Positions 3,000-52,137 of a stretch of DNA of 56,768 bases are shown piece after piece. The notes below the pieces were generated by a model. The model saw only the letters and a list, made by a program, of their open reading frames with translations, was not told the origin of the DNA and ran no database searches. The stretch covers positions 1 to 56,768 of the forward strand of contig JAGTQU010000008.1 in NCBI GenBank assembly GCA_018396695.1, read 5' to 3'. Source of the DNA: Candidatus Bathyarchaeota archaeon. Its GTDB lineage: Archaea; Thermoproteota; Bathyarchaeia; TCS64. The stretch's first letter is position 1; every line of letters begins with the position of its first letter. A program made the position numbers and the translations under genes.

Positions 3000-4184
3000 T
3001 TGGTAGCCTTCGGGCTGCTCATCGCTCTACGCCTTAAGAATATAGATTTCACATTATCTTTAATTGTTTCATCCCTAATACTAGGATTTACTTCAGAGAA
3101 ACCACCAACCATATTCATTGATGTAGCCATCACAACCTTGACTGACCCAGTTACGTGGGACATATTCTCCTCAGTGGCGCTCATTACCCTATTGGGATAT
3201 ATCCTAAAGGAAACAGGCTTAATGACGGAGACGATTGGAGCTTTAAGGAGTTTTCTATCAAGTAGAGTCCTTCTTTCCGCTATACCTGCATTATTCGGAA
3301 TATTGACGATGCCCGGCGGTGCATTAATGTCGGCGCCATTCAATGAGCCTGAGGCAGACAGATTAAAGCTGAAAGCAGAGCATAAAACCTTCGTCAACGT
3401 ATGGTTCAGACACGTATGGTTTTGGGCCTCTCCTCTATCGCCTACCCTAATTCTCGCGGCCGCTCTCGCAGGTTTCAGTCAGAGAGAGTTCATCTTCGCT
3501 GAGGCTCCTATGCTGTTTGTAAGTATCCTCATTGGCTTAGTTGCTTCTCAAGGCTTCCTTAAAAGGGGGGAAAATGCTAATCAAAAAGGAAAGTACTATT
3601 CTTCAGCTTTAACGGGTCTGGCTCCAATAATTCTCGTAGTCATTCTGAGTCTGATTGGCTTACCAGTATGGTTGGCTTTAACTCTAGGCTTGATCGTGGC
3701 GCTAGCAGTGAAACACGTCGGTCTCAAACATCTTCTAGTTTTCCTCAGAAAGGGGATAAGATGGGACATAGCCCTCACAGTTTTGGCGATGTTGTATTTC
3801 AGATATCTCATACTAGCCTCGGGCTCAGTCAATAGCCTTCTTTCATCTCTTCTCAACAGTGGAATACCATTGCTCTTAATCCTGATAGCTGTACCCGTCT
3901 CAGTAGGCATGATATCAGCCACCCCAAGCATGGGTCTTGCAATAGTCTTCCCCCTTCTCATACCTTTATCTGGAAGTTTAAGCGTATACTTGTCAGGATT
4001 CATTTATGCAGGAATCGTCGCAGGGTATCTTGCGTCTCCTATGCATCTATGTTTAGTTTTGACAAACGGGTATTATCAATCAAGTTTAGGGAAGGTTTAT
4101 AGATATCTTATCCCTTCCACTATCGCCCTCTACCTCGTGACGGGAATCTATAATCTCTCCATGAATAATCTTTACAACATATAA
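3000..4184 (+). CDS. DUF401 family membrane permease-like protein
   Basis: A 394-aa polytopic membrane protein with about ten hydrophobic segments and a conserved MPGGALMSAPFNEPEADRL loop (residues ~100-125). The overall plan matches the DUF401 family, related to anion/gluconate-type permeases of unknown substrate. The start is uncertain. TTG at 3000 is the only usual start codon near the expected N-terminus, yet the frame is open back to 2874 and has no ATG or GTG there. Homologues often begin just ahead of this first helix, so a rare start codon upstream is possible. The gene is monocistronic and divergent from GH1. Confidence 0.75.
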   Translation: MVAFGLLIALRLKNIDFTLSLIVSSLILGFTSEKPPTIFIDVAITTLTDPVTWDIFSSVALITLLGYILKETGLMTETIGALRSFLSSRVLLSAIPALFGILTMPGGALMSAPFNEPEADRLKLKAEHKTFVNVWFRHVWFWASPLSPTLILAAALAGFSQREFIFAEAPMLFVSILIGLVASQGFLKRGENANQKGKYYSSALTGLAPIILVVILSLIGLPVWLALTLGLIVALAVKHVGLKHLLVFLRKGIRWDIALTVLAMLYFRYLILASGSVNSLLSSLLNSGIPLLLILIAVPVSVGMISATPSMGLAIVFPLLIPLSGSLSVYLSGFIYAGIVAGYLASPMHLCLVLTNGYYQSSLGKVYRYLIPSTIALYLVTGIYNLSMNNLYNI

Positions 4185-4746: not shown

Positions 4747-4828
4747 GATGTCACATTCTTTAAAGTTCCGAGACCTAAATACCTAACGAATCACGTTATA
4801 ATTTTTCCAGGTTTTTAATCGGCTTAAA

Positions 4829-4993
4829 TCATTGGCGTTGTTTCTTTTTCTCCTCTTCTTCAAGAGCATAAAGCAACATGTTAATGTCATAATGTTGCTT
4901 GATGAGTTTGATTGTAAATCTTGCGAATAACATAAATACGGTAAGCGAAAAGGCTAAGATAACTACTGTCCAGAGAGTAATAGTATCCACCAA
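4829..4993 (-). CDS. Small single-pass membrane protein (54 aa)
   Basis: Start TTG at 4993 is preceded by GGAG with a 6-nt spacer on the minus strand. The product begins MVDTITLWTVVILAFSLTVF. It has one hydrophobic segment (about residues 5-25), a basic stretch (RFTIKLIKQ) and a strongly charged tail EEEEKKKQRQ. The predicted topology is one helix with the charged tail inside. It lies alone in the 380-nt gap between the YkgJ and GNAT genes, all on the same strand. I do not recognise a family. The Shine-Dalgarno and coherent protein features support a real gene. Confidence 0.6.
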   Translation of the reverse strand: MVDTITLWTVVILAFSLTVFMLFARFTIKLIKQHYDINMLLYALEEEEKKKQRQ

Positions 4994-5127
4994 TAGTTTC
5001 TCCAACCATATATTAGCTTAGCCTCATAAATATTTGACCCTCAAAACGCTTACTAATGCTAAATTTCCTGTTCTCTATCTTTAAAACGATGAGAGAAACA
5101 TTATATTTTTCAAGATGTAGAGCTGGT

Positions 5128-5649
5128 TCACTCCTTATCTACTATAGGTTTAGCCATAACCCATGCGTCTTCTCCATCCATATAATAGCCGAGATTCTTC
5201 TTCAGTTTGATGAACCCGATCTTTTCGTATAGGCTTATAGCTGAATTGTTAGTCACCCTAACTTCAAGGTAACACTCCGTGGCTTTATATTCCCTCTTAC
5301 CATTCTTAATCGCTTGGATAAGCAGGTTTGTCCCTATTCCCATCCTTCTATAAGGTTCTCTAACCGCTATTGAGACCACATGGAGTAGCCTCGTTGGCTT
5401 TAAAGTCTGAAATTTGGAGAGTCCAGTCTCCACACGGCACATGATATACCCTTGAATACTTCCATCAACCTCAGCTACAAGGAAAGTCTTGGGAAATCGA
5501 TCGTATAGATCCCTGAAGAAAAAGAAAGTATAGTTTTCAGGAAGGGTTTCGAAGTTGATCTCCATGACCTTGTTGATATCTTCCAGCCTAGACTGCCTGA
5601 TCGTAAAAGCCTTAAGCTCCAATTTAGACTCTTTATCCGTCTTCCTCAA
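5128..5649 (-). CDS. GNAT N-acetyltransferase, RimI/NatA-like
   Basis: A 173-aa single-domain GNAT protein. The acetyl-CoA pyrophosphate-binding motif RRMGIG is at residues 101-106, after the beta-4 segment LLHVVSIAVREPY. The RimI-type ending ECYLEVRVTNNSAISLYEKIGF is at 125-146. Such archaeal proteins acetylate N-termini of nascent or ribosomal proteins, so this is probably the N-terminal acetyltransferase, though other GNAT substrates are possible. It faces away from the M50 protease gene, and the 93-nt gap must hold both promoters. Confidence 0.85.
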   Translation of the reverse strand: MRKTDKESKLELKAFTIRQSRLEDINKVMEINFETLPENYTFFFFRDLYDRFPKTFLVAEVDGSIQGYIMCRVETGLSKFQTLKPTRLLHVVSIAVREPYRRMGIGTNLLIQAIKNGKREYKATECYLEVRVTNNSAISLYEKIGFIKLKKNLGYYMDGEDAWVMAKPIVDKE

Positions 5650-5742
5650 AGGATTTAAACGCTATGTATAAATGATGCTTCTAGATAGGTTTTTACCTTT
5701 CCAACCTGATTTATGGAGAGTAATCGTTAACGGTGCAAGAGC

Positions 5743-6861
5743 TTGGCGTCGTATAGGATAGTTGAACCGATCGTTGAGGAAACGATAGAACGAAGGTTCA
5801 TAGTTGAGGATAAATTCTATTCAATGAATCAACCAGTATTCGTCATTAAACCCCGCGGAGAGGGGGATCCTCGGCAGCTTCTGAAAAACGAGTTTAAACA
5901 CCTTGTAAAGGAGTTAAGTATGCTAAATTATTATCCTAGACTTTCTGAAGAGGATAACCGTTATCATCTCACTCTTCTATCGAAGCCTCTATCGAAACCA
6001 CAAAGCTACACAAAGAATCTAATTCTCCTAGCTGCTACGGCTGCAACAATATTCATCGATGGCTTTCTCCGGAGTAATAATCCTATTCTCACGGAAGCGT
6101 TGATGTCTGGGGTTCCCGTAATTGCAAATGCGGTACTATTCACGATTGCTATCCTCGGAGTATTTGGCATGCACGAGTTAGGGCATAAACTCTTAGCGAT
6201 GAAGAGAGGTATCGAAGCCTCTATGCCCTACTTTATTCCAGCTCCGCCGGGTATGGGAGGGACTTTTGGAGCTGTAATAACTCAGAAGGAGCCTCCTGTG
6301 AACAGAGACGCGCTTTTCGACTTAGGATTCAGCGGGCCTTTAGTTGGGTTCATTGTAACGATATTTGTAGCTATTTTGGGGTTTAGTCTATCATTCACGG
6401 TTCCTCTAAGCGTGGTTGAGCGATGGATGCTTAAATTTCCTGATGTTAGGTTTCAATCGATACCATTCCCTTTAATCCTCGAATTCCTAGCCTCGATCTT
6501 CAAATCTGTAGATGAGAACATGGTTTTGATACTGCATCCAGTCGGGTTTGCTGCTTGGGTCGGTTGCCTGGTAACTTTTATAAATCTCATCCCCTCTTGG
6601 CAGCTCGATGGAGGACACATCAGTCGCGCCGTATTCGGGGAGATGAATCATAAAATAATCTCCGTGGCTGGCGTACTCTTGCTTTTAATTTCTGGATATT
6701 TTGTCATGGCTATTATGATCGCTTTCTTCATGATGAGAACTGGAGGAGAGTCTGCAGCTCCACTAGACGACATCTCCCCTCTAAGCTTTTCGAGAAAGCT
6801 TTTATTCTTCGTCTATCTTGCTATGATGGCTCTGACTCTCATCGTTCTCTTTCCTTTCTAA
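5743..6861 (+). CDS. M50-family membrane metalloprotease (site-2 protease)
   Basis: A 372-aa intramembrane zinc protease. A soluble N-terminal domain of about 90 residues precedes several transmembrane helices. The zinc motif is HELGH (H144, E145, H148), and the third ligand region is LDGGH (288-292). The conserved GTFGAVI and GFSGPLVG stretches lie between them. The family cleaves transmembrane substrates, often anti-sigma-like or regulatory proteins; no substrate is evident nearby. The start is TTG at 5743 with no strong Shine-Dalgarno. The last 60 nt overlap the convergent LarA-like gene. Confidence 0.9.
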   Translation: MASYRIVEPIVEETIERRFIVEDKFYSMNQPVFVIKPRGEGDPRQLLKNEFKHLVKELSMLNYYPRLSEEDNRYHLTLLSKPLSKPQSYTKNLILLAATAATIFIDGFLRSNNPILTEALMSGVPVIANAVLFTIAILGVFGMHELGHKLLAMKRGIEASMPYFIPAPPGMGGTFGAVITQKEPPVNRDALFDLGFSGPLVGFIVTIFVAILGFSLSFTVPLSVVERWMLKFPDVRFQSIPFPLILEFLASIFKSVDENMVLILHPVGFAAWVGCLVTFINLIPSWQLDGGHISRAVFGEMNHKIISVAGVLLLLISGYFVMAIMIAFFMMRTGGESAAPLDDISPLSFSRKLLFFVYLAMMALTLIVLFPF

Positions 6862-8079
6862 GATAGGTAGTGTGTAACACCCGTGAGTTACTAAGATCGT
6901 CTTCTTCCTTCTGCGCTCTTCAACAGCTAGTTTTAAAGCCTCATTAGCTGTTTTCGCTATCTTGAAACCTAAGGGTTCGACGAAAGTCTTTGGCAGAGCT
7001 GAGACCAGGATCACTTCATTTGTTTTCAATACGTTTTTGATTAAATGAACTGATTCGGCTCCTAGGATATATCTCCTCTTCAATTCGCTTAGAATATTAA
7101 TGTGGGCAAGCTTCATAAATCCTTCAGCCCCTAAACCTTCCGAACACTCTGCCAAAAGAACGATCATAGTTCCCTTCCTTACAATCTGTCTTATGTTTCG
7201 TAGAGACCAGATCGAATGGTATAGGCTGAAATCGAATCTTATCCCTCCCGCGCTCACTACAACCACGTCTGCATCGACTTCTGTTTTAACATTGAACGAT
7301 GAACCAAACTCGACTAGAGCATTCCTCCAAGACTCTTCTAGGTTTCCAGAGTATGCTTTAATTAGTCCTCCATGAGGGTTAGTCACAAGGTTGATTGCGA
7401 AATCATTGCCAGCCAGACTTACAGCTTCGAAAGTATCCTTCAGGATGGGATTTTCTTCGACTATTCCAGGTGCAACATTATTTTCAAAAGCTTTTACTCG
7501 AATAGCTTCTAATGTTTTTAGACTGCAGATTCCTGGAATGATTGCTCTATGCGCACCACTGAATCCGGTGTATGGATCGGGATTAAACTCGCCTATCGAT
7601 ATTCTGATCTCGGATGAAGCATATCTATGGTTAATCTCTACGCTCGCCTTCCCTCCTATTTGACCAACATTAACAACATTCTCCGACGAAGGTAGGTGTT
7701 CTTCAATCGTGATCGAGCTGAGTTCTGTATTGCTTTGAATCATTTTCCTCAGTTCAGGGTTACCTTTCTCACGGGATCCGCTCCCTATAACGATGACAAT
7801 TCTTTCTTTCGAGATATTCCCAGAAAGTTCTTCTACTAAGGCTGAGACAGCTGTGACCGCTAGGTTAGGCTCCATCAAGCCGTCAACAGCTATGGCTACT
7901 CTAGAATCTGGTTTAAACTCTATGAGTCTCTTAAAGTTTTTTTCCAGCGACCTTGTTATCTCCTGCCTAGGTTCTTGAACCCTCGGGCTAGGGTTAGGCT
8001 CGATTACTCCAGCGAGATCATTTATAGGAATAGTTAAGTGCACTTCGCTCCTTCCGTAAGGGAGCCACATCTCCACCAT
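6802..8079 (-). CDS. LarA-family (DUF2088) protein, atypical
   Basis: A 425-aa protein of the LarA/lactate racemase fold; both domains are present and the length is usual. The core signature GFSGAHRAIIPG is at 172-183. In nickel-pincer LarA the corresponding stretch is PHxxAGFSGGxK. Here the His aligns with D168 and the pincer-binding Lys with R178, so the canonical lactate racemase chemistry is doubtful. The family is diverse, and other hydroxyacid or non-racemase roles are possible. No larB, larC or larE is in the window. The 3' end overlaps the M50 gene by 60 nt. Confidence 0.8.
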   Translation of the reverse strand: MVEMWLPYGRSEVHLTIPINDLAGVIEPNPSPRVQEPRQEITRSLEKNFKRLIEFKPDSRVAIAVDGLMEPNLAVTAVSALVEELSGNISKERIVIVIGSGSREKGNPELRKMIQSNTELSSITIEEHLPSSENVVNVGQIGGKASVEINHRYASSEIRISIGEFNPDPYTGFSGAHRAIIPGICSLKTLEAIRVKAFENNVAPGIVEENPILKDTFEAVSLAGNDFAINLVTNPHGGLIKAYSGNLEESWRNALVEFGSSFNVKTEVDADVVVVSAGGIRFDFSLYHSIWSLRNIRQIVRKGTMIVLLAECSEGLGAEGFMKLAHINILSELKRRYILGAESVHLIKNVLKTNEVILVSALPKTFVEPLGFKIAKTANEALKLAVEERRRKKTILVTHGCYTLPILERKENDESQSHHSKIDEE

Positions 8080-48860: not shown

Positions 48861-50312
48861 CTAGCCCTCATCAGGATTTTTTTCTCCACGTCCCTTGAAC
48901 ATAAAATGTCTACGCCATTGGAATTTTAGGAGATTATCGTAATTGTCTAGGAATGATTCGAGTTCTTCAAGTCGGCTTCGGATAGACTCACCGTATTCTT
49001 CACGGAGCCTTATTCTAATCTCTTCAAGCTGGTTTTTCAAAGAGTCGAGCTTAGTTTTGAGGTCTTCGGCATCTATTCCTCTAGCTTCCAGCTTCTCTAT
49101 GCTTTTATTTAGGACTGTGACCCTAGCTTCAAGCCTTTCGACCCACTGGTACGCAAACATTATTTCCTTGCGGTAGATATTAGCCATCATGCTGCTGAAG
49201 TTCCTTAGCTCGTATCCCAGGTCATCTATTTCATCTTCGTCATAGCTCGAAATCCTGAGCCTGATCTCGTTTAACCTCATCCTTATGCGGTTAAGGTTCA
49301 TCAATGTTAAGGCGACTTCCTGCTGTGTAAATCCAAACCCCTTTCTATTGAGCCACATGATCATATTCTCGAAACGGTTCTGGCATTGTTCTATGAATTT
49401 TTCAGCCTTTTCAAGTTTGAACTTTTTCGCTATGTGAGATATGAGCGCCATAGACCTGCCTAAGATGCCTCTAGCCTCCGCCAGCTCTTGAGCGGCTCCG
49501 CTGACATCCCCCGAGTCTAAGAGCTCCTCCGCATCTTTAAGATTTTGTTCAGCCTCGGTTAAATTGTTTCTCAAATCACTTACGTCAAATCCGTTCTCCT
49601 CGAGCTTATCGGCCATCTCTTCAAGTTTGTCGAGAAACGCGTAGGCCCGATCTATAGCAACCCTCAGTCTTTGTTCTTCTCCTTCCTCTTCTGTTTCCAT
49701 TCTCTCTACGGCTTTCGCTAATCGTAGAGCAGTGTTAAACTCTTGTAGCGCCTGGAGGGCTTTGTTAACAGATTCAGTGTAAAGTTCCTCCTCGAAAAGA
49801 TCCATCGACTCGTCAAGCAGCTCCACACCGTCTTCGTAGCTGCTTGTCGCATCTTCAGGGATAGCGGCATTGTTCTCCTCCAATTCTTCAAAGACTGCTT
49901 CAACCCTTGCCTTCGCTAAGTTGCTCATTGAGATTAGCTTCTCAGCCAGACTCTTCGTCAATCTCATGACGACAGTGAAACTTGTCTCAGCCTTAACGGT
50001 GCTCGAACTACTCAGCGTGGCTGTCACAGTATAGTCTCCGAGGAGCGCGCAGACTGGTAGGCGAAACTCTGTTGAGTAGTTTCCTTCCTCTGTCGATGTA
50101 ACGTTCGTGACGAAGACTAACCCTAGCGTATTGTTGATCTTGATCAAGACCTCGCTGTTCGGATCAGTAATACCTGAAATCCTAACGATCTCGCCTGGGA
50201 CATAGCGCTCCTTGTCTGTGGTTACAGTTATCGAAGAAGCGTTCACTAAGACTATGGATGCGGACACGGCTAATAGGGCTATCACGATGATTGAGGCTAC
50301 CTTTTTATCCAT
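48861..50312 (-). CDS. Secreted coiled-coil protein with N-terminal Ig-like domain
   Basis: A 483-aa exported protein. It has a signal peptide (MDKKVASIIVIALLAVSASIVLVNA), then an Ig-like beta domain (ITVTTDKERYVPGEIVRISG to SFTVV, ~26-115). A long, highly charged helical region with many heptads follows (for example LDKLEEMADKLEENGFDVSDLRNNL). No C-terminal membrane helix or anchor is seen, so it is free or surface-bound by other means. ATG at 50312 is chosen: GGTGA is 6 nt upstream and the signal peptide starts here. It is the last gene of the minus-strand cluster, 84 nt after the regulator. Confidence 0.75.
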   Translation of the reverse strand: MDKKVASIIVIALLAVSASIVLVNASSITVTTDKERYVPGEIVRISGITDPNSEVLIKINNTLGLVFVTNVTSTEEGNYSTEFRLPVCALLGDYTVTATLSSSSTVKAETSFTVVMRLTKSLAEKLISMSNLAKARVEAVFEELEENNAAIPEDATSSYEDGVELLDESMDLFEEELYTESVNKALQALQEFNTALRLAKAVERMETEEEGEEQRLRVAIDRAYAFLDKLEEMADKLEENGFDVSDLRNNLTEAEQNLKDAEELLDSGDVSGAAQELAEARGILGRSMALISHIAKKFKLEKAEKFIEQCQNRFENMIMWLNRKGFGFTQQEVALTLMNLNRIRMRLNEIRLRISSYDEDEIDDLGYELRNFSSMMANIYRKEIMFAYQWVERLEARVTVLNKSIEKLEARGIDAEDLKTKLDSLKNQLEEIRIRLREEYGESIRSRLEELESFLDNYDNLLKFQWRRHFMFKGRGEKNPDEG

Positions 50313-50396
50313 TTTGTTCACCGCTTTAATACGGTGATTATTTCCTATTAGAGGACTCCTATGAAACAAAATGGAACGAGTGTTCCACCGAAAGCC

Positions 50397-51695
50397 TCAT
50401 GGAACCCGATACTTCGCTTTGATTCTTATCAGGTTCTGTCCTCCCACGTTTCTCACCTCCACTATCCCCTCTTTCTGGAGGCGGCGGATTAGTCTCCATG
50501 CGCTTGTTTTCGGGATGTCAAAGTGTTCACGGATGTCTGATGCAAAGGCTTCTCCATCAGACTCTGCTAGAAACTTGAGCACCTCCTTCTCCTCAAGCCT
50601 AAGATTCTTCTTCTGCTCGAAGATGAGGTTCAAATCGACCTGACCTTTAGGCTCAGCTAAGTCAGGTCTCTTCTCTTCTCTAAGGGTAGAAGGTTTAGGG
50701 TGGCGCCTTCTCCAAAGTATGAGAGTTAGAGCGGCTACAATACTTAAGCCAATGATAACAACAGGTATGATTGGAATCGATGTCGGTAATTTAGCCTTAG
50801 CTGCAGCATTTTGAGCCTGAAGTGCATAGGACTCCGAAGATGCATAATCCTTCGAGCTCATAGCTTCAAGAGCCTTGTTTAGAAGGGCCTCAGCCTCATC
50901 TAAACCTGAAAGCCTCCCTTCGCTTCTCGCGGTCTCTATCATCTCTGAGGCTGTGTCGATCTCCCGTTGAGCCGAGACCGCTCTCTGGTAAGACTCAGCA
51001 GCCTGCGATTTAGCTAGATTTGCAAGCCTTTCTGCTTCGACATACATCCTCTCAGAGTAAGCATCTTTAGCCAGCTGTAGTGTGGTTTCAGCCTGAACCA
51101 GATTTATTCCCTTCTCCTTAAGAGAGATAATAGTCTGTTCAGCATCTTTAATCGCTGTTGACGCATTCTCCTTAGACCCGATAACGCTTAGAATATAGGA
51201 GATCCGAATGCTGCCTGAGGGCATCGTTATCAGAGGATGACCGTTAAGGCTTTCTATAGAGGTTGGTAAAACGTTAAGATCCACTACTGTCGAGTTCTCA
51301 GGGAGTAGTATGCTAGCAGGGATTGGGGTATAGACGTAGAAAGTCCATATATTGTAAGACTTATTCGTTAGATCGAATGTCTCGTACGAGACTCTTACGA
51401 GTATGGCTCCGAGGGAAAAGATTGTTACTGTTCCATCCTTCAATGAAAAGTCGAGCGGTAGACCATCCTGGTCTTCAACGATTAAATACTGGAAATCTGA
51501 CCCGAATAGGGTTAGGTTAATACTCTCAACAGTAGGATCAACTTTTACAGTGTAGATTACGCTGACGTACCCGTCTGGATAAATATTGAAAGTCAAGTCC
51601 TCTTGAGTATAGTTCTCGGCTCTTACGTGAGGAGCGAGTAAGGTGAATGCTAATATCAGAAGAACTATTGAATATTTCCGTTTTATTGAAGACAT
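50397..51695 (-). CDS. Membrane-anchored winged-helix transcription regulator with extracellular domain
   Basis: A 432-aa one-component sensor. It has a signal peptide (MSSIKRKYSIVLLILAFTLLAPHVRA), an extracellular beta domain to about 180, and a repeated-helix region (~185-300; ENASTAIKDAEQTIIS, LAKDAYSERMYVEAERLANLAKS). One transmembrane helix is at ~305-327 (IPVVIIGLSIVAALTLILW), followed by a basic linker and a cytoplasmic winged helix at ~363-425 (EKEVLKFLAESDGEAFASDIREHFDIPKTSAWRLIRRLQKEGIV). It should read an external signal and control DNA directly. The ATG at 51695 begins the signal peptide; a TTG at 51770 is the only longer option. Confidence 0.8.
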   Translation of the reverse strand: MSSIKRKYSIVLLILAFTLLAPHVRAENYTQEDLTFNIYPDGYVSVIYTVKVDPTVESINLTLFGSDFQYLIVEDQDGLPLDFSLKDGTVTIFSLGAILVRVSYETFDLTNKSYNIWTFYVYTPIPASILLPENSTVVDLNVLPTSIESLNGHPLITMPSGSIRISYILSVIGSKENASTAIKDAEQTIISLKEKGINLVQAETTLQLAKDAYSERMYVEAERLANLAKSQAAESYQRAVSAQREIDTASEMIETARSEGRLSGLDEAEALLNKALEAMSSKDYASSESYALQAQNAAAKAKLPTSIPIIPVVIIGLSIVAALTLILWRRRHPKPSTLREEKRPDLAEPKGQVDLNLIFEQKKNLRLEEKEVLKFLAESDGEAFASDIREHFDIPKTSAWRLIRRLQKEGIVEVRNVGGQNLIRIKAKYRVP

Positions 51696-51789
51696 CAGTT
51701 TAATTGCAATTTTTAACTGGTTAATTAATATTCTGAACCTATATTCAGTAATAAGCGCCTCATAATTCAAAAATCGTTCTCAAGAAAAA

Positions 51790-52137
51790 TCATATAAAAC
51801 GGATTAGTGCGAAGCCGATTAAACCCAGAATTGCAACGATCACTGCAAATATTATAACTGCTATTATTGAGACGGCTAACGCCATCAGCCATCCGCAATC
51901 AAAGAAGTGTTTGATGAGTAAGAGCCATAGTATCAACTGGATTATTGATGCTGTAAATCCTGTAAAGAAGACGCCGAATACTGTACCTATCAGGGTTCCG
52001 AATACCACAATCATAACAGCGTCGCTGAACTTTGCTTTCTTCCCGCCGACTAGGCTTCTTCCAGATAGCCATAGAAACGGGGAGATGAATATAACATTCA
52101 CAATGATGTGTATTATAATTCTGTCTAAATTAACCAA
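51790..52137 (-). CDS. Small polytopic membrane protein, unknown (115 aa)
   Basis: A 115-aa protein with four predicted helices (IIIHIIVNVIFISPFLWL; AVMIVVFGTLIGTVFGVFF; IIQLILWLLLIKHFF; and the C-terminal AVSIIAVIIFAVIVAILGLIGFALI). The loop SGRSLVGGKKAKFSD is basic. It has no recognised family. It is 12 nt after the HAD gene and upstream of the membrane regulator on the same strand, so it may be part of that system. Confidence 0.6.
   Translation of the reverse strand: MVNLDRIIIHIIVNVIFISPFLWLSGRSLVGGKKAKFSDAVMIVVFGTLIGTVFGVFFTGFTASIIQLILWLLLIKHFFDCGWLMALAVSIIAVIIFAVIVAILGLIGFALIRFI

Follow-up and report, generated by a model that had tools for sequence, protein, structure and literature searches.

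The window analysed here comprises 56,768 nucleotides of a contig from a Candidatus Bathyarchaeota archaeon (JAGTQU010000008.1). Between positions 48861 and 52137, three open reading frames lie on the minus strand, which encode a transmembrane sensor/regulator (50397..51695), a secreted protein, referred to as the partner (48861..50312), and a small four-helix membrane protein (51790-52137). Translation of the sensor likely starts at the ATG at 51695 rather than at the TTG at 51770. From the N- to the C-terminus, the sensor is composed of a signal peptide, a beta-sandwich outer domain, a stalk in the form of a helical hairpin, a single transmembrane segment that comes after the stalk and is followed by WRRRHPK, and a cytoplasmic winged helix. 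The latter scores above the cut-off for Pfam DUF7343 (31.3 versus 27.6 bits) and is likewise matched by MarR_2 and the IclR HTH domain, i.e., it is of the MarR/IclR type. An AlphaFold2 model calculated with 32 homologues reached a mean pLDDT of 90. This agrees with the anatomy that an earlier note on this DNA had read from the letters, namely a signal peptide, an outer domain, a helical stalk, one membrane helix and an inner winged helix.

Homologues of the sensor were found across the phylum. The recognition helix (IPKTSAWRLIRRL) follows a pattern, P[RK][TS][ST]xWR, that is kept across sensors. In Foldseek searches, the fold nearest to the outer domain was the beta domain found at the N-terminus of M1 aminopeptidases (E ~1e-5, probability 1.0). 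Because this match covers the domains only partially, with an rmsd of 5-6 Å or more, it reflects a distant fold likeness, and we make no family claim. The sensor combines a DNA-binding domain (DUF7343) and one transmembrane segment in a single protein, in agreement with the definition of transmembrane transcription regulators by Demey et al. 2023, which asks for a DNA-binding domain and at least one transmembrane segment. Histidine kinase and receiver domains, as they characterize two-component systems, were detected at accepted scores neither in the sensor nor in the partner.

The partner, for which the ATG at 50312 is the likely start, carries a signal peptide, one MG2/Ig domain and then a long chain of helices (structure model pLDDT 88) with helical-hairpin character, and lacks a C-terminal membrane anchor. 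This bears out the prediction of a secreted protein with an Ig-like domain and a long helical region. The Pfam match for the MG2/Ig domain (E 5e-6) lies under the curated cut-off, and Foldseek related the domain to macroglobulin MG2. The emphasis that had been placed on the Ig domain did not hold: an MG2 match was present in only 9 of 42 partners, so that the domain is not a core feature and was rejected as the key recognition part. The absence of a C-terminal transmembrane segment extends to all partners (0/84), and 80 of the 84 have a hydrophobic N-terminus. Since partner sequences are poorly conserved (18% mean column identity), no specific binding surface is obvious on them. The Ig-like N-terminal region, with the helices next to it, weakly resembles the S-layer stalk protein SlaB (NF040788); identification as SlaB was rejected, because the match scores 35.5 bits where the cut-off is 700, is confined to the Ig part, and the partner is devoid of a C-terminal transmembrane segment. 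Neither the window's partner nor nine other partners scanned matched the LTXXQ/CpxP family.

To establish which of the three genes belong together, 101 genomes were searched with each protein, loci were picked by sensor score and open reading frames were called. Co-occurrence of the three genes had been named in advance as the check on which the proposed system should stand or fall, and it separated them clearly: sensor and secreted protein passed strongly, while the small membrane protein failed. The latter (115 amino acids, four hydrophobic segments) has no match in Pfam and represents a widespread uncharacterized family of its own, encoded in 63 of the 101 genomes and, outside the window, at unrelated loci. 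In none of the 62 other genomes does a homologue adjoin a detected sensor. Its existence and topology are as predicted, its membership in the system is not, and it was rejected as a third component. A different four-helix membrane protein of 185 amino acids, which does not match the window's protein, is encoded directly upstream of the sensor gene in two related genomes (L093:7227-7784 and L095:7089-7646).

Among the class-level relatives of the window, the partner gene is the immediate neighbour of the sensor gene at 52 of 57 loci; when the query was only the window's secreted protein, it was recognized next to 42 of the 57. A partner profile was built from these class-level partners and is hence independent of the phylum-level loci, where it identified a partner as immediate neighbour in 30 of 40 cases, compared with 1 of 231 non-neighbouring open reading frames. 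Some of the misses sit at contig ends (L171, L175, L160), and at L177 a probable partner that carries a perfect copy of the operator described below escaped the profile. Sensors without an adjacent partner occur in Nitrososphaeraceae-like genomes (L161; L160 being a contig end). At L161 the stalked sensor (4818-6353) adjoins a gene that appears CBS-domain-like by eye, and there is no secreted partner nearby. Relative to the sensor gene, the partner gene is located downstream, upstream or in convergent orientation, and all three arrangements are kept. With regard to relatives of the window in a named collection, a search with a single protein yielded nothing, while a sub-alignment of close relatives succeeded; all relatives thus found stem from Candidatus Bathyarchaeota metagenome-assembled genomes (MAGs) save one labelled uncultured archaeon and one labelled Methanomicrobia.

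For 32 pairs, the distance matrices of sensors and partners correlate with a Mantel r of 0.89 (permutation maximum 0.30). Five genomes contain two to four pairs each, and here the true pairing gave a higher r than every other assignment (1152 paralogue swaps, mean 0.55). We thus conclude that the sensor and partner genes duplicate and diverge as a cassette. Some loci depart from the common composition. At two of them (L102:9611-11299 and L191:4572-5831), the outer domain of the sensor lacks a winged helix and is joined to other domains and transmembrane segments; beside it lies a partner gene, which at L191 retains its operator. At L169, the neighbour of the sensor is a protein of 669 amino acids with a signal peptide, a region resembling Lon/S16-type proteases by eye, helices and a C-terminal transmembrane segment (5729-7738), perhaps a variant partner.

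Upstream of the partner gene in the window lies a perfect palindrome, TGGAAC-ACTC-GTTCCA (TGGAACACTCGTTCCA, 50372..50387, minus strand), which we regard as a candidate operator. A third half-site, GTTTCA (50362..50367), follows on the same strand 10 bp past the second one, and GTTCC-like half-sites at such spacing recur in many aligned partner promoters. Further along the minus strand are the element GTCCT-CTAATA (50346..50356), i.e., a last GTTCC-like element plus a TATA-like box about 35 nt ahead of the start codon that is conserved as GTTCCTNTAATA or TTCCTTATAA, and GCGGTGA (50318..50324), read from the sequence as the likely ribosome-binding site for the ATG at 50312; GGTGA precedes the start codon in many relatives. 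In the aligned promoters the order is as follows: the palindrome, about 5 nt, often an extra GTTCC half-site some 10 bp on, the GTTCCTNTAATA/TTCCTTATAA element, some 30-37 nt and the start codon. The spacing of the half-sites by about one helical turn would fit subunits bound to the same face of the double helix. With few exceptions, the loci have the palindrome ahead of the TATA region and without overlap.

Upstream of partner genes, the dyad GGAAC-N4-GTTCC occurred nine times, and at most three times in shuffled sequences. The consensus of the operator is TGRAAC-N4/5-GTTYCA, to which the copy in the window conforms perfectly. With up to one mismatch, it precedes 48 of 84 partner genes, whereas among 503 control genes taken from these loci only 5 have it. 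The enrichment over controls holds for class-level (37/53, Fisher p 1e-39) and phylum-level partner promoters (11/31, Fisher p 1e-11), with p-values that treat loci as independent and somewhat exaggerate the strength of the enrichment, given a few near-identical relatives and a consensus read partly from these loci. By score, a good operator is absent from the remaining 36 partner genes; several of these are accompanied by sensors with PRTTTWR-type recognition helices, and some are operon members with the operator before the first gene. Covariation of TS versus TT in the recognition helix with the presence of the operator (34/9 versus 10/25) is confounded by ancestry and was set aside as evidence. 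The operator follows the partner gene in every gene arrangement. A shared palindrome upstream of the sensor genes themselves was rejected, as only 2 of 97 have one. At many Bathyarchaeial loci the sensor gene runs into the operator, whose first three bases, TGA, serve as its stop codon, and apparent 4-nt ATGA gene overlaps in these relatives are therefore mostly over-long open reading frame calls.

The site is nearly unique: in the 1.9 Mb genome to which the window belongs, there is exactly one perfect match to TGRAACN4GTTYCA. A wide regulon was rejected, as the one-mismatch sites inspected in the genome fall almost exclusively inside genes. One intergenic site with a single mismatch (TGAAACGATTGTTCTA, L233 ~1501, G000:C35:16180-16195) lies 46 nt upstream of the gene for a 160-amino-acid protein with an N-terminal hydrophobic segment, which is possibly a second target in this genome. 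Extra genes for proteins with N-terminal signal-like segments, accompanied by operator-like sites, were also seen by sensor-partner pairs at L115:5647-6342, L132:4734-5282 and L181:5783-7555, and the local regulon can thus include a second secreted protein. The conserved operator in the partner's promoter lends independent support to the earlier proposal that a signal is passed directly to DNA, and indirectly suggests that the sensor may control transcription from the membrane.

The pair also occurs in ammonia-oxidizing archaea. Archaeal amoA was present in the nine genomes tested, which belong to families f27 and f59. In f27 an operon encodes, in this order, a soluble HTH_45 winged-helix protein, the sensor and the partner, and ahead of the first of these genes the operator is present as a tandem, TGAAAC-N4-GTTCCGCT-N4-GTTCCGCT. 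This tandem operator was found at the sensor-partner locus in 11 of 12 ammonia-oxidizer genomes and is the sole site genome-wide in ten of them. G102 has three tandem sites, all within the sensor-partner locus, and the single match of G193 is outside this locus. The reversed tandem pattern, used as a control, gave one site in total. The HTH_45 gene that heads the operon (L172:5322-5609, with matching genes in L162-L168 and L193) could encode a co-regulator. The MAG labelled Methanomicrobia (L217) carries a partner gene (2084-2959) preceded by a perfect operator, TGGAACGGGCGTTCCA-N5-GTTCCTTAAG, and a sensor gene (3006-3797); note that this label could be wrong, and none of our arguments rests on this locus.

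We consider it probable that sensor and partner form a dedicated transmembrane one-component circuit, in which the secreted partner is under the control of the sensor and probably feeds back on it. The beta domain and the helical stalk would be exposed outside the membrane and the winged helix inside, where a dimer of the latter is proposed to bind TGRAAC-N4-GTTYCA in the partner promoter, a short distance ahead of the TATA region. That the winged helix binds the operator is suggested by the lack of any DNA-binding protein other than the sensor that accompanies the operator in every arrangement. Bound sensor would then set transcription of the partner gene, and the position of the palindrome upstream of the TATA region points to activation. 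The secreted helical partner may act beneath or inside the S-layer and, by analogy with CpxP acting on CpxA (PMC4160245) or TcpH on TcpP (PMC11323476), would most likely touch the outer part of the sensor and feed back on it. A ligand-sensor pair, as suggested previously, would be a plausible description. The state of the envelope, be it the surface or the S-layer, is a natural guess for the signal, because the only clear target of the sensor is a secreted rod.

Parts of this model can be drawn differently. The sensor might read another cue, such as a peptide, a glycan, a metal or the state of the membrane, and the partner would then be a regulated output only, serving as a scaffold or chaperone at the surface and making no contact with the sensor. 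An operator in the partner promoter is just what a plain regulator-target pair would have, partner sequences are very variable, and an outer domain that resembles a peptidase domain could bind small ligands. However, the tight co-evolution of sensor and partner beyond species history, together with their common helical-hairpin style, suggests contact, although shared locus and operator could supply part of this signal. We regard a mere output role as a real possibility, albeit one that we do not favour. Slightly less probable is that the sensor represses the partner gene and is released by an outside signal. Single-site local control of adjacent genes is common for repressors, and in the short promoter version, where no more than about 5 nt separate the palindrome from the TTCCTTATA element, bound protein could block TFB. 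The predominant placement of the palindrome ahead of the TATA region speaks against this, and so may the flank upstream of the TATA box, a poor purine-rich BRE that would fit an activator-dependent promoter.

It is improbable that an unlinked transcription factor binds the palindrome and that the sensor is a mere neighbour acting on other genes. The HTH_45 protein of the ammonia oxidizers could indeed bind there, but the domain scan did not reveal HTH_45 beside the window's pair, and the constant companion of the operator is the sensor. An ordinary chance neighbourhood of three genes is an adequate description for the small membrane protein; for sensor and partner it is refuted by pairing, co-duplication and operator statistics, and as an account of the whole locus its probability is minute.

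Transmembrane one-component regulators as such are a known kind of protein and widespread in archaea (PMC10269533), and examples with accessory proteins are ToxR-ToxS and TcpP-TcpH (PMC10269533, PMC7496328, PMC11323476). The sensor shares with these the combination of a membrane-tethered winged helix and an outside sensing part in one polypeptide, and the control of ToxR and TcpP by an extracytoplasmic accessory protein is proposed here to have its likeness in sensor and partner. In contrast to the layout of ToxR, TcpP and CadC, with an N-terminal cytoplasmic winged helix, a transmembrane segment and an outer domain, the order is reversed in the sensor, the winged helix of which is C-terminal and MarR/IclR-like; furthermore, its outer domain is unrelated, and the partner is soluble and secreted, with the operator on the partner gene. 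ArnR and ArnR1 of Sulfolobus, a studied archaeal case, are HTH regulators of the one-component type that are bound to the membrane and act on surface structures (PMC6396743). They carry the HTH at the N-terminus and two transmembrane segments at the C-terminus, along with a HAMP-like part, unlike the sensor with its C-terminal winged helix and single membrane segment, which thus falls outside ArnR/ArnR1 as characterized there; the passages considered here describe no secreted partner for ArnR (PMC6396743). Sensor layout and outer domain therefore differ from those of ToxR, TcpP and ArnR. A further parallel is CpxP-CpxA, in which a secreted helical accessory protein is paired with a membrane sensor of envelope stress (PMC4160245). 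CpxA, unlike the sensor described here, is a histidine kinase acting through CpxR, and none of the partners scanned matched the CpxP/Spy family. The Cpx system also acts on the gene for its own accessory protein, as we propose for sensor and partner gene. By domain match, the sensor is related to COG2512/DUF7343, which, judging by the COG name, we take to be archaeal 'membrane-associated transcriptional regulators'. In the open-access literature searched, we found no description of the sensor family, its outer domain, the secreted partner or the operator.

Very little is known of how archaea sense the state of their envelope. The sensor, its dedicated secreted partner and a DNA switch readable from the sequence are conserved from Bathyarchaeia to ammonia-oxidizing archaea, some of which are culturable. 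The operator turns a vaguely defined family of membrane-associated regulators into a testable circuit and helps to find sensor-partner pairs in which the partner has diverged too far to be recognized, as at L177. Tentatively, and with less confidence than we place in the circuit as such, we suggest that this may be an archaeal circuit for envelope sensing that spans the phylum, belongs to the core of ammonia oxidizers and is common among Bathyarchaeia. A secreted helical rod would be its sole regulated product and at once the ligand of the membrane-tethered transcription factor, so that a closed loop would gauge the state of the cell surface without a kinase.
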